64,000 nt of DNA, from positions 496,001 through 560,000 of the forward strand of contig NZ_CP076545.1 in NCBI RefSeq assembly GCF_018889955.1, in the 5' to 3' direction. Origin of the DNA: Collinsella sp. zg1085 (GTDB lineage Bacteria; Actinomycetota; Coriobacteriia; Coriobacteriales; Coriobacteriaceae). The position numbers and the translations under genes are program-made. Below, in pieces: positions 10,928-56,821 of the stretch (the first letter of the stretch is position 1; each line of letters opens with the position of its first letter). Below the pieces are notes generated by a model, which searched no databases, had not been told where the DNA came from, and worked only from the letters and a program-made list of their open reading frames with translations.

Positions 10928-11353
10928 ATGAAGCCAGGAATTCACCCTGAGTACGTAGACTGCACCGTGCGTTGCAGCTGCGGCAACGTCTTTAAGACCC
11001 GTGCTACCAAGGCCGAGATTTCGGTTGAGTTGTGCAACGAGTGCCATCCGTTCTATACCGGTCAGCAGAAGTTTGTTGATACCGGCGGACGTGTTCAGCG
11101 CTTTGCTGATAAGTTTGGTGGCGCTGCTGCTGCCGCACTCGAGCGTGAGGCCGCTAAGAAGGCTGAGCGTCAAAAGGCTGCTGAAGAGGCCGCTGCTAAG
11201 AAGGCTGCTGAGCGTGAGGCTAAGGCTGTTCAGAAGGCTAAGCGCGCTGAGAAGTTTGCTGCTGAAAATGCCAAGAAGGCAGAAGAGGCTCCAGCTGCTG
11301 AGCCTGTTGCTGAGGCAGAAGAGGCGCCCGCTACAGAGGCTGCTGCTGAGTAG
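10928..11353 (+). CDS. rpmE: 50S ribosomal protein L31 with long Ala/Lys-rich tail
   Basis: Residues 1-65 are canonical zinc-type L31 (C+ form): [10 protein letters not shown], Cys16-x-Cys18, Cys36-x-x-Cys39, [11 protein letters not shown] and [10 protein letters not shown]31 bridges the two ribosomal subunits. Unusually, ~76 further residues follow: a highly charged Ala/Lys/Glu helix with KKAE/REA repeats (about 70-115), then an Ala/Glu/Pro tail. The frame and base composition continue smoothly and the stop is followed by a terminator, so the tail is part of the gene. AGAGGAG precedes the ATG. Confidence 0.95.
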
Positions 11354-18234: not shown

Positions 18235-19173
18235 TTAGCTGTCGGCTTTGCGCTCAATTCCGGTTGTGTCAAAGGCAGGGGTGAAACTTTCGTCAACGGT
18301 TCCGCCCTCTTGCCAAAACATGTTTGTAAAGCCGCGGTCATCGGCATAGTCAAGAACTAATTCATATTCCTCGGTGCTAAGGGCGCGAGCCAGATTGCCA
18401 CCGAGTTTTTTCATGCGTGTATTGGGGGTGTACTGATTCATAACCGAAATGGGAACATCACCTGCGGTATTCCAGATATGGTCGAGCACGTGCAGTGAGT
18501 CATCTGTATGACCTGGCAGGACAAGGTGTCGAACGATGATACCCTGAGTCATAAGCCCGTCGTTGGTATAGCGAATGCCGCCACGGTGGGTAATCTCTTG
18601 CATCATATGAGCAAGCGCTTCAATAGCAACGCTGGGGTAGTCCTGTACTCGACTGAGCTGAGCGCCGAGTGTAGGGTCGGCATACTTAAAGTCAGTGAGC
18701 CAGACATCAATGAGATTGCCAAGTTCATGAATGGCCTCAGGGAGTTCATAGCCGCTGGTGTTATAGACGATGGGGATGCTAAGGCCGCGCCGGCGTGCTT
18801 CGGTGATGGCATGGGGAAGGAGATGCGCCCAGTGTGTTGCGGTGACAAGGTTGATGTTGTGAACCCCTTGTTCTTGCAGCTCAAGCATGATTTCAACCAG
18901 GCGATGTTCGGTGGTTGTGAGACCAAAGTTACCCGTTGAAATTTCGTGGTTCTGACAAAAGACACAGGCAAGCGGGCACCCGGAGAAAAAGATGGTACCA
19001 GAGCCGTTGGTACCTGATATGGGCGGTTCTTCCCAGAGGTGACGCGCGGCACGCGCAAGCTTGAGGCGGCTGGTGGACCCACAGGCACCAGCTATGTTTG
19101 CAGCACGGTTTGCGTGACAGCGGCGCGGGCATAGCTCGCAGCGTTCGAGCGTTTGTGGTGTGAGAAGCGGCAT
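18235..19173 (-). CDS. PflX-like radical SAM protein (COG1313 type)
   Basis: A 312-residue radical SAM protein. The cluster motif is Cys66-x3-Cys70-x2-Cys73 in SGCPLACVFCQNHEIS. An N-terminal extra Cys group (CELCPRRCH, Cys12, 15, 19, and Cys31) is the hallmark of the PflX/COG1313 group, which resembles pyruvate-formate-lyase activases but whose target is unknown. No glycyl-radical enzyme lies in the window. A late ATG and weak upstream signal make the exact start uncertain. It is a single gene; downstream, 18026-18234 holds no clear feature. Confidence 0.88.
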   Translation of the reverse strand: MPLLTPQTLERCELCPRRCHANRAANIAGACGSTSRLKLARAARHLWEEPPISGTNGSGTIFFSGCPLACVFCQNHEISTGNFGLTTTEHRLVEIMLELQEQGVHNINLVTATHWAHLLPHAITEARRRGLSIPIVYNTSGYELPEAIHELGNLIDVWLTDFKYADPTLGAQLSRVQDYPSVAIEALAHMMQEITHRGGIRYTNDGLMTQGIIVRHLVLPGHTDDSLHVLDHIWNTAGDVPISVMNQYTPNTRMKKLGGNLARALSTEEYELVLDYADDRGFTNMFWQEGGTVDESFTPAFDTTGIERKADS

Positions 19174-19419
19174 GTGGTTGGTGCTTTCGTTTGTAGTGTG
19201 TTCGTCTTTTTTGCACTGAAAATACTATAGCGCTCATGAGAAGCAGCTGCCAATAAGACTGTTGTGGCAGCGCATATATCTATGCGCGTTGTGCGAACAC
19301 CCTGTACCTTGCTGAGCTTGAAGAATCTCATAGGCACTACATCGCAGAGTGCAATAGCAGTACTGTTTTGTCGTATCGGGTGCTGGCGCTCTTGTCACAT
19401 AGTTAAGTTACATCTGTCG

Positions 19420-19584
19420 CTTTGGCAAAAATGACGAAAAAGTACTCTCTATAACCCAGCGGGTTAGTATTTATTTAACAAAGTCGCAGGTAGATGAGCT
19501 GCGAGTAAAGCTACAGTTGTCGCTTTATGTCAAATTAGTCAAAAATGACAGATTTTTGCGTCAAATTTGTCATTTTTGCCAAAG
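19420..19584. repeat. Palindromic interspersed element, diverged copy 3
   Basis: Same plan as the other copies but with different arms: CTTTGGCAAAAATGAC (19420-19435) against its exact complement at 19569-19584. An AACCC-AGC-GGGTT hairpin (19453-19465) precedes the core TCGCAG-GTAGATGAG-CTGCGA (19484-19504), whose loop is identical to that of the other copies while the stem is changed and fully paired. Two TCAAATT motifs in the right half are 31 bp apart (19530 and 19561). The rest of 19174-19667 holds nothing I can identify. Confidence 0.75.
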
Positions 19585-19667
19585 CACTGGTCAAAGTGGT
19601 GATGCAGCATCTTGTAGGCTGCTATAACACCAAACACCTGCGTGCACCTATATTGAAACGAGCGAGC

Positions 19668-20624
19668 CTAAATCTCGCATAGGTTTTGAGGCGTGCCAGC
19701 TAACCACGCAGCAACGTTTTCAAACTCAATGTGAGCCCGACGAATCATGGCTTCTTGTGTGAGATAGGCTACATGAGGGGTGAAGATGGTGTTCTTTGCG
19801 CTGAGCAGGGGATAGTCTGCGGGAATAGGTGGTTCCATATCAAAGACGTCAATTCCGGCACCTGCAATTTGTTCTGTGTTGAGCGCCACTGCAAGAGCAT
19901 CGTTATCAACAATTGCCCCGCGTGCGCAGTTAATAAATATTGCGGACTCCTTCATGCGTGCAAAATGCTCTTCACCAAAACTCTTACGCGTAGTTTCGTT
20001 TAACGGCAAATGCAGCGATACAATATCGCTTTGTTCAAGGAGTGTTTCAAGATTGACATGCTGTATGCCAAATGCAGTTGCTTGAGGGTTTTCATGCCGA
20101 GCATATCCGAGTACGTGAGCTCCAAACGCAGCAAAAAGCTTGCCGGTTTGCGTACCAATATGCCCAGTACCTACAATTCCTACGGTCTTTCCTGCAATTT
20201 CTCGACCTACCATACCGGTCGAATTGCCACCCGTGTGAACTGCTGCGTGTCCAGCAGCAACAAGACGAAACACATCAATAGCAAGACCAACTGACAGCTC
20301 CGCTACAGCGGTGTCAGAGTAACCAGCACAATTGCTAACCGCAATGCCACGTTCGCGACATGCAGATACGTCAACATGGTCAATGCCGGTAAATGCAACA
20401 GCAATAAGTTTGAGCTGTGGCAAAGCGCGGATTACCTCACCCGGAAGCGGATTGTTGGCAATCATAATCACATCAGCGCCCTGTGCTCGCCGGATAAGCT
20501 CATCAGGGTTACTACTTTTATCATGTGCTGCAACAAAGCTATGACCAGCGTCAATGAGCGGCTGAGAAAGTTCATGCAGAATGGTTGAATCAATACCTAA
20601 GGGTTCGAGTAAACAAATATGCAT
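19668..20624 (-). CDS. D-2-hydroxyacid dehydrogenase (SerA/GhrB-like)
   Basis: A 318-residue NAD(P)-dependent dehydrogenase. The Rossmann motif is KTVGIVGTGHIGTQTGKL (about residue 145), and the catalytic Arg-Glu-His are in NCARGAIVDNDAL, DVFDMEPP and FTPHVAYLT. It would interconvert a 2-keto acid and a D-2-hydroxy acid, for example glyoxylate/glycolate or hydroxypyruvate/glycerate. Its place downstream of pucR and the hydrolase, in the same direction, suggests a role next to ureidoglycolate/glyoxylate metabolism, but the substrate is unknown. AAAGGAAG precedes the ATG. Confidence 0.88.
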   Translation of the reverse strand: MHICLLEPLGIDSTILHELSQPLIDAGHSFVAAHDKSSNPDELIRRAQGADVIMIANNPLPGEVIRALPQLKLIAVAFTGIDHVDVSACRERGIAVSNCAGYSDTAVAELSVGLAIDVFRLVAAGHAAVHTGGNSTGMVGREIAGKTVGIVGTGHIGTQTGKLFAAFGAHVLGYARHENPQATAFGIQHVNLETLLEQSDIVSLHLPLNETTRKSFGEEHFARMKESAIFINCARGAIVDNDALAVALNTEQIAGAGIDVFDMEPPIPADYPLLSAKNTIFTPHVAYLTQEAMIRRAHIEFENVAAWLAGTPQNLCEI

Positions 20625-20673
20625 GAGAACTTCCTTTCAAAGAAGCGGCTAGATAAGGTTTTGACTAACAATT

Positions 20674-21615
20674 CTACGTAGTCGTTTTGCGTGTGGCAGC
20701 TAAATTCGGCAGTGAATCTAAAAAGTTCAAAGCCGCTTGATAGGCCTGCAATCCTTCTGGTCGTGTTATATCACGGTCAAAATCGTGGGGCAAATAATAC
20801 ACTTGATGCATAACCGCATATGGAGCACCTCGCGCAAGTCGCTTTGATGCACCGAGCGGCACATCCTCATCGCCGGTGCTTGCTGCAAGAAAAAGGGGTG
20901 GCAGCGCAGCAATGTCCTCAGGCGATAGCGAGAGCTCGTTAGCCTCATCGGGGGAGCGAAGTCCTAGTGTTTCTAGCCACTTACCGTTTTGCCGTCCCCA
21001 AATGTAGAGCTGCATGCGTGTGAGAGGGTCGGCCTCAGTGATGTAACTATGCCTATAAACACCGGTTTGAGCAGCAGCTAAAAATGGAGCAACAGCTGCA
21101 TCAGAAACAGTGGGAAGCGCCATATAGGCAGCTGAGGGCTCATGTAGCCAGTCTTCGTTGAGCGCAGGATAGCCATAAAACGACCAGAGCGCATCAATTT
21201 GAGCATCACATGCACGGCGTTGCAAACGCGCACAAACTTGTAGCGCTAACCACGCACCGGCAGAACGACCAAAGAGTACAACCCGCGCATATCCTAGATT
21301 GCGTGCCGTACGAATAAGCGATTCTATGGCATGGGTCGTTACGCTAACAAGGTCTTGAGCTGGTGTTTCGGGTGCAAGAGGGTATCCAAGCGTAATAAGA
21401 GTGTGTCCGTAATCACTCATGAGCCGCCGATAGGGAAGCGGTAAATCGTCTTTTGAGCCAAAGAGCAGACCTCCGCCGTGCAGATAGATTATGCAGGTTT
21501 TACAGCGGCATGTGTTATCTCGGCCTGGTAGCAGCGTCTCCTCAGCCCCACATGTCACCGTTATAGGAAGCGCACTTGCCGCCTCAAAAGCCTCAAGGAC
21601 TGCATTACATGCCAC
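20674..21615 (-). CDS. Alpha/beta hydrolase of the HSL/acetyl-esterase type
   Basis: A ~313-residue hydrolase with oxyanion motif IIYLHGGGLLF, nucleophile FGRSAGAW, acid in STGDEDVPLG and His in LPHDFDRD: a complete Ser-Asp-His triad of the hormone-sensitive-lipase group. I chose the GTG at 21615, which overlaps the last 11 bp of pucR and has GGGAGAG 8 nt upstream; a TTG nine codons earlier is less likely. Tight coupling to pucR implies it serves purine-ring degradation, yet no such hydrolase is an established step, so its substrate is open. Confidence 0.82.
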   Translation of the reverse strand: MACNAVLEAFEAASALPITVTCGAEETLLPGRDNTCRCKTCIIYLHGGGLLFGSKDDLPLPYRRLMSDYGHTLITLGYPLAPETPAQDLVSVTTHAIESLIRTARNLGYARVVLFGRSAGAWLALQVCARLQRRACDAQIDALWSFYGYPALNEDWLHEPSAAYMALPTVSDAAVAPFLAAAQTGVYRHSYITEADPLTRMQLYIWGRQNGKWLETLGLRSPDEANELSLSPEDIAALPPLFLAASTGDEDVPLGASKRLARGAPYAVMHQVYYLPHDFDRDITRPEGLQAYQAALNFLDSLPNLAATRKTTT

Positions 21616-23221
21616 GGTCGCTCTCCCTGTTTGATGTGTCAATCAGCTTAAACATGCGACTTGCCAGAGAGATTTGCAGGCGGTCATCGGAGTTGCGCAC
21701 GTCAATATCAAAGAGTTCAAGCATGCGCGCTGCGCGGTAGCGCACCGTCTTGGGGTGAACAAATAGTTGTCGGGCACATTCATGATAGTTAAGGCTCAGC
21801 TCACAGAGTGCGACGGCGGTTTCGTATAAATCAGGTGCTTCTTCGTACAGTCTCATCACACGTGAATCAATAAAATCGCTGAGCTGTCCCACGTCGTGCG
21901 CTCGCATAAAAATTTTGTAAATACCCAGTTCATCATAGGTAATAACCGTAAAGTGATACCGGTCATTATCAAAGAAGCGCACAATATCAAGTACTTCATT
22001 GTTAAGCCGTGGGATAGCTTCGCGCGTGCCCATTGAGCTTACTGCTGCAAGATACTGTATTTCTGGCACGCCAGGGAGCGTCTGCATTTCGCTGAGAATC
22101 TGCCCCAACTCAGCTTTGTCAAAACGGTCAGACTCGCTTCGGATATTGTGAATGAAGGTAATGCGGTCATTTGTCTCATAGAATGCAAGGTTTTGATATG
22201 CCATGGTGAGACGCTGGCGAAGGGCGCGAATGACCTCTTCAAGGCGTTCCTGATTGTGCTGATTAACACTGACGCGAATCATAACCAGCTCATAAAAGGG
22301 GTATCTGCCAATTCCTAACTCTATGGCAACCGCCTCAGCTTCACTCAGGCTTTTGAAATGCCCTAATAAGAGGTCGTGCGCAAGATTATTATTTCTAAAA
22401 AACAGCTTGCGCTTTACCGCATTTTGTTTCAGCACTTCCATTTGCAAGAGGCTGATGACGTTCTCGATTGCCATAATATCAATAGATGACAGTTCATGGC
22501 TGAGCGCATGAATCACCAGGTAGTAGGCACGGTCATCAGAGCTAGGGATACGTGCAGCAGTTGCATGTCGGGGTTTACCCTCATACACGAGTTGCGCATC
22601 AAAGTATTGGTTAGCGCGCAGGTGGTCTGGCTTTATGGGAATAAGCTTGGCAATCTCGTACTTGGTAAGGCCTTCGTCAGTTGAAATACGACGGTTTTTA
22701 GCGGCATCTAAAAAGGTCAGATTGGTATGAATGATATTGCGCAAGCGGAGCAAAATTTGCAGTACGCTTGGCTGCTCAAGCGCAAAGGCCATAATCTGGC
22801 GGTGCACTTCGTAAAAGCGATTCATGAGCGTGAGGTTTGAATCAATGACATTACCAAGCACGTCAAGCAAAAGCGCCTCGTAGCGTGTATCTGCTTGTAT
22901 CTGAATGAGAGGAATTGAGCAGCGCTCGCAAAACGCTATCATTTTGCTGGGCGGATTTGATAGGAGGCGCTCCGGCTTAAATACAAAGGCGCTAATACCA
23001 AGGCGCGCTGTTTCTTCAAAAAACACTTCGAGCTCGGCATCGTTAAGCGCCTCAAGTGCATAAAAGCTGGTGATAAGCATTTGCCCTTCGCGACCCCAGT
23101 TTTCGATGTCACCTGCTTCAAGCACCATGGCCGAGCTAACTTGGCGCGTGGTTCCAGATGCCCCTGCAATTACGGTGGCAGATGCAAAAGAGGGAAGATG
23201 TAATACATCAGCTACGTTCAC
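21605..23221 (-). CDS. PucR-family transcriptional regulator
   Basis: A 538-residue regulator. The N-terminal ~120 residues form a PucR sensory domain (MNVADVLHLPSF... GDIENWGREGQMLITSFY, GISAFVFKP). A long GGDEF-like middle region follows, and the C-terminal HTH_30 is seen in CELSLNYHECARQLFVHPKTVRYRAARM. PucR proteins control purine and allantoin catabolism, matching the surrounding all genes. The start is GTG at 23221, with AAGGAGA 8-9 nt upstream. A seven-base tandem repeat lies 40-87 bp before the start, where it could affect expression. Confidence 0.9.
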   Translation of the reverse strand: MNVADVLHLPSFASATVIAGASGTTRQVSSAMVLEAGDIENWGREGQMLITSFYALEALNDAELEVFFEETARLGISAFVFKPERLLSNPPSKMIAFCERCSIPLIQIQADTRYEALLLDVLGNVIDSNLTLMNRFYEVHRQIMAFALEQPSVLQILLRLRNIIHTNLTFLDAAKNRRISTDEGLTKYEIAKLIPIKPDHLRANQYFDAQLVYEGKPRHATAARIPSSDDRAYYLVIHALSHELSSIDIMAIENVISLLQMEVLKQNAVKRKLFFRNNNLAHDLLLGHFKSLSEAEAVAIELGIGRYPFYELVMIRVSVNQHNQERLEEVIRALRQRLTMAYQNLAFYETNDRITFIHNIRSESDRFDKAELGQILSEMQTLPGVPEIQYLAAVSSMGTREAIPRLNNEVLDIVRFFDNDRYHFTVITYDELGIYKIFMRAHDVGQLSDFIDSRVMRLYEEAPDLYETAVALCELSLNYHECARQLFVHPKTVRYRAARMLELFDIDVRNSDDRLQISLASRMFKLIDTSNRESDRGM

Positions 23222-23260
23222 AGAACAATCTCCTTATATAGAGGCATGCAGACGACAGAC

Positions 23261-23308
23261 GACCGATGACCGATGACCGATGACCGATGACCGATGACCG
23301 ATGACCGA
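23261..23308. repeat. Seven-base simple sequence repeat (GACCGAT) upstream of pucR
   Basis: Six full copies of GACCGAT and a seventh lacking only its last base, with no interruptions. Being 7 bp long, any copy change would shift promoter or leader spacing rather than stay neutral. It is the only perfect microsatellite I see in the window. Confidence 0.9.
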
Positions 23309-23352
23309 ACAAGCAATTGCATCATAGCTGTACATAAAACCGGAAAGCTGCT

Positions 23353-23390
23353 AAACAAAAACCGCCTTGTGCAAGCGCGACAAAGCGGTT
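23353..23390 (-). terminator. Terminator downstream of allE
   Basis: Read on the minus strand, AACCGCTTTGT and ACAAGGCGGTT pair around a ten-base CGCGCTTGC-like loop and run into TTTTGTTT. It ends the allE transcript before pucR. Confidence 0.75.
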
Positions 23391-23429
23391 GTTGCGTTGT
23401 ATATTCGCAGCAAATACTTGCTTTGAGCG

Positions 23430-24218
23430 TTATAGAGCTACGTCGCGATTGCAGTCTTTAGAATAGATATAGGCAAAGTCTTCGTCACGTCCCACTGCAT
23501 AGGCAGCTTGCGGACAATAAGCACCCATGTAGAGATAGTCTCCCTTTTTGACAGGGAGCCACTCATCATCGAGTACATACATGCCCTGACCTGAGTAAAT
23601 GTAGGCACCGTGCTCTTGGAAGTGCGTCTCTATATAGCCATGACTTGCACCGGGCTTAAACAGGAGGATATGCATATTCATATCAAAACCGAGGTTGGAA
23701 GCAGAAGGCAAGAAGTCTTTTACCAAAACATCGCTCATGCCCTCATATTCAACCCAGTCAACATCGTTGATGTTGCCAATTACAGTATGGGCTTCAAAGC
23801 CTTCAAGACGGTCGTAGAGACGCTTATACATAAAGCCATGAGCGGGCTCGTGGCTGGCGTTCTCGAAGAAGATTTGCTTGTCTTCGGGCACATAGATATA
23901 GCCGCCCGCGGTAATAATTTGCTCTTGCTCGCCATCAGAAACTTTGAGCGTTCCATCAAAGATATAGAGGAATAGTTCCTCGCCGGAGCGACCCCAGCCC
24001 TGTGTATTATTGCCGCCCTCGTGAACGGTAATGAGATAGTCGGCAAAGGTGGCGCCCAGTTTTGGCGAACCGAGGATAGTAATGTCACAGTTCTCAAATC
24101 CGGGGATTACGTTTTTGACGCAACCATCGGGTTCGATAAGGGCCCAATTGCGACGCACAATCGAGCGATTGGCGAGTATATCATCACGATATCCGGTGTT
24201 GCTGTTGCGATAACCCAT
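23430..24218 (-). CDS. allE: (S)-ureidoglycine aminohydrolase
   Basis: A 262-residue bicupin. It converts (S)-ureidoglycine to (S)-ureidoglycolate and ammonia, the step after allantoate amidohydrolase. The family start YRNSNTGYRDDILANRSIV is clear. A first cupin contains GRSGEELFLYIFDGTL, and the second has HILLFKPGASHGYIETHFQEHGAYIYSGQG, whose His, His and Glu form the manganese site. It ends YIYSKDCNRDVAL. Length matches E. coli AllE (YlbA). It has terminators on both sides (one upstream ending the MFS gene), so it probably has its own promoter. Confidence 0.95.
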   Translation of the reverse strand: MGYRNSNTGYRDDILANRSIVRRNWALIEPDGCVKNVIPGFENCDITILGSPKLGATFADYLITVHEGGNNTQGWGRSGEELFLYIFDGTLKVSDGEQEQIITAGGYIYVPEDKQIFFENASHEPAHGFMYKRLYDRLEGFEAHTVIGNINDVDWVEYEGMSDVLVKDFLPSASNLGFDMNMHILLFKPGASHGYIETHFQEHGAYIYSGQGMYVLDDEWLPVKKGDYLYMGAYCPQAAYAVGRDEDFAYIYSKDCNRDVAL

Positions 24219-24253
24219 ACAAAACTCCTTACTTGAAAGATAAATACAGTATA

Positions 24254-24293
24254 GAAAAAATACCCCGCTGTTTTAGTCGTCACAGCGAGGTAT
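24254..24293 (-). terminator. Terminator downstream of the MFS transporter gene
   Basis: On the minus strand ATACCTCGCTGTG pairs with ACAGCGGGGTAT around a short loop and is followed by TTTTTTCTAT. It separates the allC-transporter unit from allE. Confidence 0.75.
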
Positions 24294-24308
24294 CAATAAT
24301 CAAATTAT

Positions 24309-25571
24309 TTAGATGGATGTAACTTTTTGACGGGTGTTAGTGAGTGCAAAAAGAATAGTACCAACTGCTAGAAGAGCTGCACCAACATAGAAGCCGAGTT
24401 CGCCAGAACCCGTTATATCAATAATCGAACCAGTTAAGGCGGGTGCAACTACAGAAGATGCCATACCAAAGAAGTTAAAAACTCCAAGGGTGGTAGCGAT
24501 TGACTTAGGGTCGGCTTGGTCAGACATATAAGAAATAAGTACTGGGTCAACAGCCAACTTCCCAAGAAGTCCGTAAAGCAACAAGATAATGGCAAGAACA
24601 CCAGCATTGGGGGCAAACATGGAAATGGCGATTAGCACGAAAGCGCATATTTCAAGGAAGGTGATAACTAAGTTTTTCTTTTCACGTTTCTTATCGGAAA
24701 TACGGGAGAAAAGTAGTGCGCCTGGAATTGCGGTAACTGAAATCATAGAAACAATGAGTCCAATCATGCCACCAGAGATGCCACGCTCGGTCTCGAGGAA
24801 GGAGGGTAGCCAAGTAACAATCATGTAATAGGCATAACAGGTGCAGAAATAGAGGATATAACATGCGATAAAACGTAAGCTGAAAAGACGTGGGCGTTCC
24901 GTAGTGGTAGTTACTGTTTCATTTTTTTCATGAGAGATTGTAGTAGATGCTGTTTCAGTATTGTTTTTGCGGAGAGCACGCTTCTCAGCCATGTTGTCTT
25001 TGAGCATGATGACATACCAAAGAACCATAAAGAGAATTAAACCGGCTGAGATAAAGACCATGGTTTGCCAAGGGAGGTTAAGCTGTTTAACAATGTAGCT
25101 TGAGCCTGTCATACCAAGAATCATTCCCAAGGCAGAACCTGAGTTAACAATTGCTGTTCCAACACCTTTTTTATCAGTTGGAACATGTTGTGCAGTAAGG
25201 GAAAACGCAGCGCCATAGTATACACCGCAACCAACACCCGCAAGAACGCTTCCAAGATAGATACTGGTAAGTGAGTTTGCGGTGGCAATAAGCGTTGCGC
25301 CAGCAGCAAAAATTAAGAAACCCGGAATTAGAACCCGCTTTTGACCAAAACGGTCAACCAGCCAACCAGAGGGAATCTGGAGGGCGGTGTATCCAAAGAA
25401 GTAACAACTTGAGATTAGCCCCATTGCAGCATTTGTTTGCTCACCAATGGTGCCTTGGATTTCGGTATAGACTGGCGAGAGCATGGAACGGTAAACCCAA
25501 ATGACTACCCAACCTATGCAAAAGGTAAAGATAATCCGCTTCCAATAGTTCCTACCATATATGTCTGCCAT
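24309..25571 (-). CDS. Major facilitator superfamily transporter, probably for allantoate or a related anion
   Basis: A 420-residue protein with 12 predicted membrane segments and a central hydrophilic, Thr/Lys-rich loop (about residues 200-230). The MFS signature between segments 2 and 3 is LVDRFGQKRVLIPG, and a second is RISDKKREKK between segments 8 and 9. The N-terminal part, with YRSMLSPVYTEI, resembles the anion:cation symporter branch. It sits 31 bp after allC in the same direction. Because no allantoinase is in the window, uptake of allantoate itself is an attractive but unproven guess. Confidence 0.85.
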   Translation of the reverse strand: MADIYGRNYWKRIIFTFCIGWVVIWVYRSMLSPVYTEIQGTIGEQTNAAMGLISSCYFFGYTALQIPSGWLVDRFGQKRVLIPGFLIFAAGATLIATANSLTSIYLGSVLAGVGCGVYYGAAFSLTAQHVPTDKKGVGTAIVNSGSALGMILGMTGSSYIVKQLNLPWQTMVFISAGLILFMVLWYVIMLKDNMAEKRALRKNNTETASTTISHEKNETVTTTTERPRLFSLRFIACYILYFCTCYAYYMIVTWLPSFLETERGISGGMIGLIVSMISVTAIPGALLFSRISDKKREKKNLVITFLEICAFVLIAISMFAPNAGVLAIILLLYGLLGKLAVDPVLISYMSDQADPKSIATTLGVFNFFGMASSVVAPALTGSIIDITGSGELGFYVGAALLAVGTILFALTNTRQKVTSI

Positions 25572-25602
25572 GTGTTTCCCCTTTCATGGGAGAAGGAGTA
25601 AT

Positions 25603-26829
25603 TTAATAAGCTAATTTGTGTAAAACGCCAGCAAGAGCATCGATACCTCTTGCAAGGTCTGCTGGGTCAGTATCCTCGGCAGGATTGTGGCTCACGCCAT
25701 CAATACTTGGGACAAAGAGCATGCCCGTAGGAACATGCGGGGCAATGATTTGAGAATCGTGACCGGCACCGGAGTGCATCACAAGGTAATTGTCACCGCG
25801 CTCTTTGCAGGTCTGCTCAATGAGGGAGACGAGCTCTAAATTCATAGGTACCGGGTCTTCATCCATCCAGCACTCAATCTCAATCGTGACCCCGTGTTGC
25901 GCAGCAATACGCACCATGTCCGCTTCAAGAGCTTCAGAGAAGCTATGAAGCACCGCTTTGTCGGTATGACGGCAATCCATGCTAAACAGAGCTTCACCAG
26001 GCACAACGTTTACCGTATTGGGCGAGACCTCGATATGTCCAAAGGTAAGAACAAGCGGGTCGCCAGCCTCGTTTGCTTTAGCGAGAGAGCTGCTTACAAT
26101 CTCGGCAAATACCTGAACCACGTCATGGCGGTAGCACATGCGTGTTGTACCTGCATGATTTGCCTGACCGTGAAGGTGGATATTGTAGCGGCGCTGTCCG
26201 GCGATGGCATTTACAACACCAACCGAGGAGCCTTCCATCTCAAGGGTATTTCCCTGTTCGATATGAAGCTCAACAAACGCTTCTACCTTATCAAGGGGGC
26301 TTGAGGTCTGAGTGCGCGGTGAGAACCCGCAATCATTCATGGCCTCAACAAAGCTCACGCCCTCGCTATCAGCAATACCTTGAATATCGGCGGCAGGCAC
26401 ACATCCGACAAGGTTTTTGCTGCCCCAAAATACAAAGGGGAAGCGGCTGCCTTCTTCTTCAGCCATAGAAATAATGCGCAAGCTCTTTTTTGGCGTGCCA
26501 TAGTTTTCGATGAGATGCTTGATAGCCAAGTAGCCACCAAAAATGCCGAGCGCCCCGTCGAGTTTTCCACCCTGAACAACGGTATCAACATGGCTGCCGG
26601 TTGCGATAATCTCCTCAGACTCGCCACTACCCTGATAGGTGCCAACAAGGTTGCCAACCTCGTCAAACTCAGCTGTCATACCTAAGTCTTCAAACCGTTG
26701 TTTGAGGGCAAGCTGTGCTGCGAGCCATGACTTGCTAAACAAAAGACGAGTCATGCCACCGCGCTCATCACATCCAAATGAGGCGAGCCAATCACGTGCA
26801 GCAACTACCTCTTCCGGAGTAATACTCAT
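25603..26829 (-). CDS. allC: Allantoate amidohydrolase
   Basis: A 408-residue M20-family amidohydrolase of the HyuC/AllC type. It hydrolyses allantoate to ureidoglycine, CO2 and ammonia. Metal and catalytic motifs are ATGSHVDTVVQGGKLDG, MAEEEGSRFPFVFWGS, ELHIEQG, the dimerisation-domain HLHGQANHAGTTRM and MHSGAGHDSQ. These favour allantoate/ureido substrates over peptidases, and allE and allD nearby settle the choice. I used the ATG at 26829, two codons inside a GTG, because AAGGAAG is better spaced. It is divergent from the allF-allG fusion gene. Confidence 0.93.
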   Translation of the reverse strand: MSITPEEVVAARDWLASFGCDERGGMTRLLFSKSWLAAQLALKQRFEDLGMTAEFDEVGNLVGTYQGSGESEEIIATGSHVDTVVQGGKLDGALGIFGGYLAIKHLIENYGTPKKSLRIISMAEEEGSRFPFVFWGSKNLVGCVPAADIQGIADSEGVSFVEAMNDCGFSPRTQTSSPLDKVEAFVELHIEQGNTLEMEGSSVGVVNAIAGQRRYNIHLHGQANHAGTTRMCYRHDVVQVFAEIVSSSLAKANEAGDPLVLTFGHIEVSPNTVNVVPGEALFSMDCRHTDKAVLHSFSEALEADMVRIAAQHGVTIEIECWMDEDPVPMNLELVSLIEQTCKERGDNYLVMHSGAGHDSQIIAPHVPTGMLFVPSIDGVSHNPAEDTDPADLARGIDALAGVLHKLAY

Positions 26830-26920
26830 GTTCACTTCCTTTCACAAAACCTGCGGCTAAGCGCCTGCATACCTGCCTAAACACTGAACTAAGAGTACGG
26901 GTGAGCAGAATCTTCAACAA

Positions 26921-26935
26921 TATCCAGTCTGGATA
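26921..26935. promoter_or_regulatory. Perfect 15-bp palindrome in the allC / allFG divergent promoter region
   Basis: TATCCAG-T-CTGGATA is exact over seven bases each side. It lies 91 bp from the allC start and 133 bp from the fusion-gene start, the position expected of a shared operator. The regulator is unknown; PucR is the nearby candidate. Confidence 0.5.
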
Positions 26936-27068
26936 AAGAAGTTGAGCTAACGCTATCCCTTTCGGTCCGTGTTATTCATGGGCTGAAATGATTAACTGAG
27001 ATGCAAAGATGTGTCCTTATCAACAGGCAAGGATGTATCTGTCGAGCGCGATACGGGAAGGTTTAGAT

Positions 27069-30068
27069 ATGCTGTTTACAGTTGTGGAGCATAATTCTTA
27101 TCAGGACTCTATTAACCTGATGCTTCTAACAAATAAAATCAATGCAATGCCTGGCGTAATTCGTTCTCAAATTATGATGGGAACAGATGCTAATAAGGAT
27201 ATATATCAGGCGGCAGGGCTTTTAACCCCTGAGGCGGCTGCAGCTCAGCCAAGTGACATGATTATTGTGGTTGAGGCAAACTCTCATGACATTCTTGAGC
27301 GCGTATTAGAAGAAACAAGATTGTTTCTCGCAAACCTTTCAGTTAAACATGCGAGTCAAGAAGGCATGTCTGAGGCTCATTCTTGGGAAGAGGCGCTTGC
27401 GCTTTTGCCTGATGCTAATATGGCGCTTTTTTCTATTCCCGGTGAGTATGCAGCTCCAGAGCTTGAGCGTGCGCTCGATTTAGGTCTGCATGTTTTCTCT
27501 TTCACCGATAACGTCTCTGCAGAAGATGAGGCGCGCTTAAAAAAGAAGGCGCACGACAAAGGCTTGCTGCTTATGGGACCTGACTGCGGCACGGGCGTTA
27601 TCTCAAGTGTTCCGGTGGCATTCACCAATGTTATTAACCCAGGCAATATTGGCATTGTGGGAGCCTCAGGAACCGGTATTCAAGAGGTTACCTGCGCCAT
27701 AGACCGTTTGGGTGGCGGCTGCGTGCATGCCATTGGTACGGGCGGTCGCGATTTGAAGGCCGAAATTGGTGCAGTTACGGTAAAGGATGCCATTGTTGCT
27801 CTTGAGCATCACGACCCAACCGATGTCATCTGCGTTATCTCAAAGCCGCCTGCGCCCGAAATTCGCGATGAAGTGGTTGACCTTTTGCAAAAGTGCACAA
27901 AACCAGTTGTTGCAATTTTTATTGGTGAGAAGCCGCTCGCGCATGTGGGTCATGTACACCTCGCGCATACGCTGGAAGAATGTGCACAGATTGCTGTTGA
28001 TTTAGCGCGCGGTGCTAAGGTGCGACCAAATTATTTGGAACCGCTTGCACATACAGTTAGCTCTACGCTTGCCCCTGATAAAACAGTTGTTGGCCTGTAT
28101 TCTGGCGGAACGCTTGCCGGTGAGGCTGCCATGATGATTACTGAGGCGCTTGAGCTGGGCCACATCATCAAAGAAGACGGCTACATGCTGCGCCATGGTG
28201 GCTATGACGTTATTGACCTTGGCGACGACATCTATACGCAGGGTCGTCCTCATCCCATGATTGACCCTGATGTTCGCATTGCTATGATGCGCGAATATGC
28301 CCAAACGCCTACTTGCGGTGTCATTCTCTTTGACTGTGTGCTCGGTTATGGTTGTCACGAAGATATGGCAGGTCTGTTGGCGCCTGTTATTGCTGAGTGC
28401 ATAGAAACTGCTCGCTTGGATGGTCGTGAGCTCAAGTTTGTGGGAACAGTTGTTGGCACGCGCCAAGACCCACAGGATTATGAACGCTCGGTCATGATGC
28501 TTGAACAAGCAGGCGCAATTATTGAGTCGAGTAACGCACGCGCCGTACGCACTGCGCTTGCCTATAAAGGCATCACCTTTGTTGAGGCCGACCGCGCATG
28601 GCTTGATTATGACATTACCGATACAACACCTTTGCCAAAACCCAGCAAAGCCGTCATGAATTTGCTCAACTCAAAGCCACGTGTCATTAACGTGGGCGTT
28701 GAGAGTTTTAATGAGCCGCTTCGCGCTTATGGTGCACAAAGCGTGCAGTATCGCTGGAAGCCTATGGCAGGCGGCAACAAGCGCATGATTCACCTGCTCA
28801 CCGAGCTTGCAAAGCACGATGAGCTGAATGAGCAAAATAATATAGTGCTTGAGCGATTCCGTGCCTCGCAGCCTTTCTTGGTTGATGTTAAGCCCGCCGG
28901 CGCGCTCATTCCTGAGATTAACGGGAAAGTGATTCTGCATGCCGGTCCGCCCATCGAATACAGCCACATGACTGACCCCATGCAAGGCTCATGCGTAGGG
29001 GCGGTACTTTTTGAGGGCTGGGCAAAAACCGAGAAGCAGGCTCGTGAGCTGCTAGAACGTGGCGAAGTGCGTTTTATTCCGTGCCACCATGTACACGCAG
29101 TGGGTCCTATGGGGGGCATTACAACTCAGAGTATGCCTATGGTGGTTGTGAAGAACCGCGTTGATGGCACGGTTGGCTATTGCACCATGAACGAAGGCAT
29201 TGGCAAAGTGCTGCGCTTTGGTGCATATTCGCAAGAAGTAATCAATCGCCTGTGCTGGATGCGTGATGTATTGGGTCCCGTATTGGCTGCTGCCCTTGCT
29301 CAAAAGGAGGGTGGAATTAACCTAAATGTGCTGGTTGCACGAGCTATTACTATGGGAGACGAGTTCCATCAGCGAAATATTGCTGCCTCGCTTTGTTTTT
29401 TGAAAGAACTTGCTCCGCTTATTGTGTCACTTGATTGGGATGAGTCTGAGAAGCAGGCTGTTATGCAGTTTCTTGCAGATACCGATCAGTTCTTTTTGAA
29501 TATCATGATGGCTATGGGCAAATCTATTGTCGATTATGTTCGCGCCTATCGTGGTGGCTCAATCGTAACAACTATGTGTCGCAACGGCGAAAACTTTGGT
29601 ATTCGCATTTCTGCGCTTGGAGACCAGTGGTTTTTAGCGCCGGTTAATACACCTAATGGCTTGTACTTTACAGGCTATAGTCCTGAGGACGCAAATCCCG
29701 ATATTGGAGATTCAGCAATTACCGAGACCGTAGGTGTAGGTGCTATGGCTATGATTGCGGCACCTGGAGTGACGCGTTTTGTGGGCGCCGGTGGCTTTGC
29801 TGATGCGCTTGAAACGTCCACTGAAATGGAGCGTATCTGCGTATCTCATAACGCAGCTTGGACTATTCCTACTTGGGACTTTAAGGGCACGTGTTTAGGC
29901 ATTGATGTTCGTCGTGTGGTTGAGACGGGCATTACGCCACTCATCAATACAGGTATTGCGCATAAGCGTGCAGGGGTGGGCCAAATTGGAGCTGGCACTG
30001 TGCGAGCACCTCTGGGTTGTTTTGAAGCGGCGCTTGAGGCGCTTGCTGCAAGCTTAGGCATTGAGTAG
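27069..30068 (+). CDS. Fused FdrA-YlbE protein, oxamate carbamoyltransferase subunits AllF and AllG
   Basis: A 999-residue protein. Residues 1-~515 match FdrA, a succinyl-CoA-synthetase-like protein (MGPDCGTGVISSVPVAF, GIVGASGTGIQEVT near residue 195, YSGGTLAGEA, HPMIDP, FDCVLGYG). Residues ~530-999 match YlbE/DUF1116 (RWKPMAGGNK, GPPIEYSHMTDPMQGSC, GAVGVGAMAMIAAPG-like block). In E. coli fdrA, ylbE and ylbF (allFGH) encode the transferase that splits oxalurate with phosphate into oxamate and carbamoyl phosphate. The frame is continuous across the junction, so this is a genuine fusion. GGGAAGG supports ATG 27069. allH follows 6 bp later. Confidence 0.9.
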   Translation: MLFTVVEHNSYQDSINLMLLTNKINAMPGVIRSQIMMGTDANKDIYQAAGLLTPEAAAAQPSDMIIVVEANSHDILERVLEETRLFLANLSVKHASQEGMSEAHSWEEALALLPDANMALFSIPGEYAAPELERALDLGLHVFSFTDNVSAEDEARLKKKAHDKGLLLMGPDCGTGVISSVPVAFTNVINPGNIGIVGASGTGIQEVTCAIDRLGGGCVHAIGTGGRDLKAEIGAVTVKDAIVALEHHDPTDVICVISKPPAPEIRDEVVDLLQKCTKPVVAIFIGEKPLAHVGHVHLAHTLEECAQIAVDLARGAKVRPNYLEPLAHTVSSTLAPDKTVVGLYSGGTLAGEAAMMITEALELGHIIKEDGYMLRHGGYDVIDLGDDIYTQGRPHPMIDPDVRIAMMREYAQTPTCGVILFDCVLGYGCHEDMAGLLAPVIAECIETARLDGRELKFVGTVVGTRQDPQDYERSVMMLEQAGAIIESSNARAVRTALAYKGITFVEADRAWLDYDITDTTPLPKPSKAVMNLLNSKPRVINVGVESFNEPLRAYGAQSVQYRWKPMAGGNKRMIHLLTELAKHDELNEQNNIVLERFRASQPFLVDVKPAGALIPEINGKVILHAGPPIEYSHMTDPMQGSCVGAVLFEGWAKTEKQARELLERGEVRFIPCHHVHAVGPMGGITTQSMPMVVVKNRVDGTVGYCTMNEGIGKVLRFGAYSQEVINRLCWMRDVLGPVLAAALAQKEGGINLNVLVARAITMGDEFHQRNIAASLCFLKELAPLIVSLDWDESEKQAVMQFLADTDQFFLNIMMAMGKSIVDYVRAYRGGSIVTTMCRNGENFGIRISALGDQWFLAPVNTPNGLYFTGYSPEDANPDIGDSAITETVGVGAMAMIAAPGVTRFVGAGGFADALETSTEMERICVSHNAAWTIPTWDFKGTCLGIDVRRVVETGITPLINTGIAHKRAGVGQIGAGTVRAPLGCFEAALEALAASLGIE

Positions 30069-30074
30069 TCGCTT

Positions 30075-30926
30075 ATGTTGTATGCTCACACGCTCTCTCC
30101 GTATGCAGCAGAACAGCTTAGCTCTAACCAGCTAGGACGGGTTCATAGTGTCTTTAGGTCAGGCATCAACCTTGCGTTGTCGGGTGCTCTCATTCATGTA
30201 GGCACAGACGCTAAGCTTATGTCCTGTACGGGTATGTGTGTGGACGCTCAAACCTTAGACGCCTTGCTTGCGGTGGTAACTCCCGGAGTGCTTATACGGG
30301 TGCGCGCTGGTTTGCTTGCATGCTATACCACAGATGGTGTTGTTGAGCTTGATAGTAGAAGCGCCCAGCTCATGGATTGTTCGCTGGCAAACATGCTCGA
30401 GCTTTCTGACATGTTGTGGGCAATTGATTACCTTCGTGTAACAGAGCAGTTTGGGTGGCATACCATTCTAAAGCATGCTGGCCTCGCGATGACAGACGAG
30501 GTATCTGGGCATTTGTTGAGTCTCTGTAGTGAGCAAGGGGTGGGTTCTAAAACTATTGCCTATCTCGTGGGGCGCGGACCAGGTTTAACGCCCTCAGGTG
30601 ATGATATATTACTGGGCTATGCGGCATCTCTTCTTATGTGCGGGGCTGATTATCAGCTTGCTTTAACACTTGCAGAAGCTGCTTCAGGGCGAACCACGCA
30701 CGTGAGTCAGTCATATTTTGATGCGCTGGCGCGCGGCTGGGTGCATCCTGTGTTTGGTGATTTGGAGCGTGCTATTGCTGAGCATTCAGAGCCACACATG
30801 CAAGCAGCTTTAGGAGCAATAACGCGCATTGGTCATAGCTCGGGTTGGGATGGTTTACTCGGCTTATACGCAGGCTTTTTGCATGCTGTGGCACATGAGC
30901 AATGTGTGGCATTCCAAGTTGTATAG
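30075..30926 (+). CDS. allH: DUF2877 protein, probable oxamate carbamoyltransferase subunit AllH
   Basis: A 283-residue protein with the DUF2877 signature LVGRGPGLTPSGDDILLGYAA (about residues 165-185) and a C-terminal GHSSGWDGLLGLYAGF. Its E. coli counterpart YlbF/AllH works with FdrA and YlbE. It starts 6 bp after the fusion gene, with little room for its own ribosome binding site, so it is read from the same message. Identification of the role rests on family and neighbours. Confidence 0.85.
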   Translation: MLYAHTLSPYAAEQLSSNQLGRVHSVFRSGINLALSGALIHVGTDAKLMSCTGMCVDAQTLDALLAVVTPGVLIRVRAGLLACYTTDGVVELDSRSAQLMDCSLANMLELSDMLWAIDYLRVTEQFGWHTILKHAGLAMTDEVSGHLLSLCSEQGVGSKTIAYLVGRGPGLTPSGDDILLGYAASLLMCGADYQLALTLAEAASGRTTHVSQSYFDALARGWVHPVFGDLERAIAEHSEPHMQAALGAITRIGHSSGWDGLLGLYAGFLHAVAHEQCVAFQVV

Positions 30927-47337: not shown

Positions 47338-47352
47338 GGTGGACGACACTTT

Positions 47353-47423
47353 TTTTGTTAGCTGGGTAGGGTGCTTGGTTGCGGTAGTTTTTGTTAGCTG
47401 GGTAGGGCGCTTGGTTGTGGGAG
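47353..47423. repeat. Two tandem ~36-bp repeats after the rRNA operon
   Basis: TTTTTGTTAGCTGGGTAGGG...GCTTGGTTG is repeated at 47353-47387 and 47388-47423 with three differences. The rest of 47338-47739 holds no gene that I can support; the T-run at 47350 may help end the rRNA transcript. Confidence 0.6.
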
Positions 47424-47739
47424 TCCTGGTGCTATTGCGACACAGTGCACCGCAAGCGCTCGTGAGCTGTTGTGGGCAGTGATGCTATTGATAGGCTGGG
47501 TAGCTGTTCGGCTGTAGCAGTTTGTGCACGGCAAAAGCCAATGAGCTAGTCTTTTTAGAGCTGGAGTAGTTTCCGTTGAAGAGATTGGATAGCTTCTCTC
47601 TCTAAGCTCATACTCTTTTCGTTACGTTTTATTTTGTGTGCCCCCGTCGCTTAATTAGCTATTTCCTTGCTTTATTATGATGCCGGTATATGACTTCTGG
47701 CTGCTTGTTAGCGCCGTGCAAACCTGAAGGGCAGGACCT

Positions 47740-56652: not shown

Positions 56653-56821
56653 CTTTTGACAGAAACGGGCAATTTGGCAGTGTAGAACCCCCGTGAGTTA
56701 TTCGTTGTTTTGTAAACCTGCAGGTAGATGAGTTGTAGTTTTTCTAACTATAGGGGGTTTATTGCCAGATTGCCCATTTTTGTCAGGTTTTACTGCCAGA
56801 TTGCCCATTTCTGTCAAAAAG
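56653..56821. repeat. Palindromic interspersed element, copy 4
   Basis: Arms CTTTTGACAG...GGGCAAT and ATTGCCC...CTGTCAAAAAG are inverted. The core is CTGCAG-GTAGATGAG-TTGTAG (56719-56739). Two ATTGCCC motifs start at 56769 and 56800, exactly 31 bp apart, and 49 bp separates core and first motif, as in copies 1 and 2. Sequence outside the motifs differs at many positions from copies 1 and 2, so the matching distances are informative. No trailing 42-bp array follows. Confidence 0.8.

Follow-up and report, generated by a model that had tools for sequence, protein, structure and literature searches.

The heptamer array upstream of pucR in Collinsella sp. zg1085 is most probably (we put the probability at about 0.6) a lineage-specific microsatellite born of slippage, which lies between the terminator of the upstream gene allE and the pucR start, most likely within the transcribed 5' leader of pucR, and whose effect is nil or modest. 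Replication slippage would have grown a tract of period 7 in this lineage, downstream of the point where pucR transcription begins, and pucR expression would at most change modestly with tract length instead of being switched on and off.

A perfect heptamer array before the pucR start

The window analysed here, by which we mean the whole stretch of 64,000 nucleotides, contains a period-7 tract made up of a perfect core and two variant copies:

23261..23308, minus strand: perfect heptamer array (GACCGAT)6.86, with ATCGGTC-type units when read along the coding strand of pucR
23249..23262, minus strand: two variant copies CAGACGA, 5/7 identical to CCGATGA and in register with the array

Direct reading of the sequence gives (GACCGAT)6.86 on the plus strand, and Tandem Repeats Finder returns the same interval with a period of 7, 6.9 copies, 100% matches and GACCGAT as the unit, bearing out the almost seven perfect units that an earlier note on this DNA had described. 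The CAGACGA copies, which that note missed, are a degenerate edge of the array's own tract; they lie on its gene-facing side, and with them the tract spans 23249-23308. A perfect core flanked on one side by decayed copies is typical of a tract grown by slippage, and we count this in favour of the microsatellite reading.

The array is far above chance expectation. Matches to two units at no more than two mismatches number eight, against a mean of 0.17 in dinucleotide shuffles of the window, and the longest array at a period of at least 5 in first-order Markov copies of our genome sample (5 repeats) reached no more than 15 bp. Its short units, joined head to tail in near-perfect to perfect copies beyond what chance provides, make it a simple sequence repeat.

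That genome sample, comprising the window and 20 evenly spread stretches of 20 kb, covers 464 kb or 27% of the 1.72-Mb genome. Within it the GACCGAT array is the only one with a unit length of 5-30 and at least three perfect copies, and no other array with a period of at least 5 and at least three copies was found. The longest period-7 self-match is 41 bases at the array versus 11 bases elsewhere in the sample. The unit itself has no occurrence outside the array within the window, and its count in the 464 kb (43 versus 36.5 expected) indicates no enrichment beyond the array. Placed against the microsatellite reading is an array strikingly long for an otherwise array-free 464 kb and located exactly before a regulator; this location may be due to chance, yet it suggests a function.

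Two further kinds of repeat came to light. Tandem repeats with longer units occur in the window at 1076-1184, 11277-11350, 47352-47424 and 56758-56816, with units of 42, 36, 36 and 31 bp, respectively, each present in some 2 to 2.6 copies. The other kind is a (GACCGAT)5 array on a viral contig at L051:2639 (reverse strand), starting ATGACCGATGACC... directly after an AGGAG motif; there ATG codons recur from unit to unit, changing frame, at what may be a start site, a context unrelated to that of the pucR array.

pucR and its probable allantoin-catabolism neighbourhood

The genes on either side of the array are transcribed in the same direction:

21605..23221, minus strand: pucR, PucR-family regulator of 538 aa, intact, with Pfam PF07905 and PF13556
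23430..24218, minus strand: allE-like cupin gene (Pfam Cupin_2); the allE-pucR synteny recurs in genome G016 and in Collinsella vaginalis

The pucR product combines PF07905 with a C-terminal PucR-type HTH. Its start is the GTG at 23221 on the minus strand, which has an AAGGAG ribosome-binding site and yields an N-terminus, (M/V)NV, common to relatives; the array thus lies 40-87 bp upstream of pucR, exactly where the earlier note had placed it, and outside the pucR reading frame. The product of the allE-like gene is, by context, (S)-ureidoglycine aminohydrolase. Further upstream, beyond this gene, lie an MFS transporter and an M20 amidohydrolase, and the divergent genes encode an FdrA-AllG fusion, AllH, a dicarboxylate symporter-type transporter and an Ldh_2 dehydrogenase. 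By gene content we infer that the neighbourhood is an allantoin-catabolism cluster. Since pucR encodes the only PucR-domain protein in the genome and lies inside this cluster, any true switching of pucR could have consequences for the cluster.

Among the divergent genes, 27009-30068 (plus strand) is a single ORF of 1019 aa that joins FdrA-like CoA-binding/CoA-ligase domains to an AllG domain (oxamate carbamoyltransferase subunit); AllH follows directly at 30075, and the ORF appears to be an AllF-AllG fusion.

The array most likely lies in the pucR leader

Three features between allE and pucR bear on where the array sits relative to the pucR transcript:

23358..23393, minus strand: intrinsic terminator of the upstream gene allE (AACCGCTTTGTCGCGCTTGCACAAGGCGGTTTTTG), between allE and the array
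23321..23326, minus strand: TATGAT, a -10-like hexamer and the best pucR promoter candidate, with a poor -35 (CTTTCC at 15 bp)
23218..23325, minus strand: possible upstream ORF of 35 codons, which reads through the array and whose TGA overlaps the pucR start (GTGA)

Because a strong allE terminator precedes the array, pucR probably has its own promoter, which would lie either in the 50 bp from terminator to array or in the array region. Hairpins read by eye at the matching place in C. vaginalis and G016, both with the allE-pucR order, accompany this arrangement. If TATGAT is used, transcription would begin near 23316 and the 5' leader would open with the array. This promoter call is weak: a stricter promoter scan found no sigma-70 site on the pucR strand between terminator and array, and the array could therefore be inside the promoter region. 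The terminator before the array and the TATGAT between the two are nonetheless what we count for the leader position. The earlier note had assigned the array to the promoter or leader of pucR; the location it gave holds, and of the two seats the leader is the more likely.

A TATATA near 23239 was considered as a promoter and set aside, as transcription would begin inside the ribosome-binding site. No Rfam family was found in 19000-30000, and the folding of the 230-nt region is only marginally more stable than that of its shuffles (z -1.65), mostly owing to the terminator.

The array is absent from relatives

The genus also includes C. vaginalis, whose PucR is 63% identical. Three array units at no more than one mismatch are absent from 42 other Collinsella genomes, and a comparable array is likewise missing from all six orthologous pucR upstream regions that were compared. 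The array is thus not a conserved regulatory element, and with 42 congeneric genomes lacking it, it has the sporadic distribution among related species that is characteristic of microsatellites.

For G016 and C. vaginalis, the two species whose gene order matches, the distance from terminator to pucR start is 86 and 49 bp, respectively, compared with 135 bp here; removal of the 60-bp tract would leave about 75 bp. These distances fit a local expansion, an insertion not being proved by them since the total allE-to-pucR spacing is alike in G016 (about 206 bp versus about 208 bp here). Orthologous spacers were also searched for a seed unit, and the 9-base match in G016 (CGGTCATCG/CGGCCATCG) is not beyond chance, as 109 of 500 shuffles reach it. 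In four other relatives (loci L022, L023, L024 and L025 of genomes G028, G017, G023 and G026, respectively) pucR appears by eye to be divergent from an FdrA/AllG-like gene instead of downstream of allE, indicating that the cluster has been rearranged within the genus.

Could copy number control pucR?

Heptamer slippage, in steps of 7 bp, might instead alter pucR transcription and so switch or tune the allantoin and purine genes across the population, making the array a contingency locus, the phase-variation reading that the earlier note proposed. The array is the right type of sequence in the right place, it precedes the gene for the genome's one PucR-domain protein, and the nearest tested precedent, by analogy, is provided by the hmw1A and hmw2A promoters of Haemophilus influenzae, which likewise have a perfect 7-bp tandem repeat at most about 100 bp before the start codon (PMC2651432, PMC8262952). 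There, heptamer copy number changes hmw1A expression (PMC8262952), with more heptamers giving less transcript (PMC8262952; PMC2651432). The hmw repeats, however, lie between two promoters, number 13-38 copies in the strains listed, and have shown both variation and an effect on the adhesin (PMC2651432, PMC8262952), whereas the pucR array has about 7 copies, shows no second promoter nearby and stands before a metabolic regulator, so that the likeness is in form only. Nor is any promoter spacer recognisable around the array: a change in promoter spacing is not favoured as the route because no -35/-10 pair is seen to flank it.

Mismatch repair offers a further point in favour, as no MutS_I domain was detected in the whole genome by a search that finds MutS in 11 of 14 control genomes. 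The only NucS candidate is a single sub-threshold NucS_C match (G000:C1:968046-968180), and post-replicative, canonical mismatch repair may be missing from this genome. Loops of 7 bases are usually poor substrates for MutS, however, and a missing MutS therefore says little about the slippage rate.

Contingency loci usually, if not obligatorily, have further arrays in the same genome, most of them at genes for surface structures or restriction; their absence from the 464 kb sampled argues against a general contingency-locus strategy, and the lack of the array in relatives also weighs against such a role. One full-text query joining Collinsella, phase variation and tandem repeat found no literature, and none was found joining PucR, tandem repeat and phase variation. 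Taken together, we regard a contingency locus as unlikely. A more specific proposal, by which the only long heptamer repeat in the genome sample would act as a tuning knob, slippage in the pucR leader giving a subpopulation with altered purine or allantoin use, is a long shot.

We also folded a putative leader carrying anything from 0 to 12 full units, taking 23316 as a guessed transcript start. The repeats pair with themselves in this simulation and the energy drops steadily as units are added, yet with this start the predicted unpaired fraction of the ribosome-binding site stays at 0.35-0.44 across 0-12 full units (0.38-0.44 across 1-12) and that of the pucR start region at 0.28-0.43. A leader-structure switch is accordingly not favoured, the predicted access to the ribosome-binding site being essentially flat across copy numbers.

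Other roles for the array

The array might be a set of direct repeats to which a regulator binds, either as DNA or as RNA; PucR itself and a protein that binds the leader RNA are examples. Since three units make 21 bp and so about two turns of the helix, every third unit would lie on the same face, and in Beggiatoaceae TAACTGA heptamer arrays upstream of starts have been suggested to act as binding sites (PMC4679880). Those direct repeats, found in Beggiatoaceae, Cyanobacteria and Bacteroidetes, are also intergenic heptamer arrays before start codons and possible leader elements, but in their case a single sequence recurs at many sites of a genome, with 169 sets counted in one genome, mostly a few bases from the start (PMC4679880), whereas the pucR array has a different sequence and occupies one place only. 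A PucR operator would be expected upstream of further cluster genes as well, and within the window GACCGAT is confined to the array; with no enrichment beyond the array across the sample and no conservation in relatives, this role is quite improbable.

Very improbable is a leader-peptide switch, in which copy number would set which stop an upstream ORF reaches. The unit is free of stops in all frames on the pucR strand, and two ORFs read through the array: the 35-codon ORF, which ends at 23218 and at the present copy number runs from 23325 to a TGA over the pucR GTGA, as in translational coupling, and a 33-codon ORF, which ends at 23234. Stop-free units are common by chance, however, neither ATG is preceded by a ribosome-binding site, both ATGs are within or ahead of the candidate -10 and may escape transcription, and pucR has its own AAGGAG; the 35-codon ORF is probably not translated. 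Finally, an assembly artefact, whether in the copy number or in the array as such, is scarcely credible given that the 48 bp are shorter than any ordinary read, that the edge copies of the tract are distinguishable and that the genome is one contig with 99.9% completeness.

Implications

The microsatellite reading places the pucR array with ordinary bacterial microsatellites, with which it shares a homogeneous core, decayed edges, species specificity and a non-coding location, and from which its length sets it apart, no other array in the genome sample being as long. It is at present a candidate strain-typing microsatellite, and it offers a clean natural test of function for a lone array before a regulator. 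Should the number of units vary and pucR respond to it, the array would give a Collinsella-type gut actinomycete a contingency locus of a metabolic kind.
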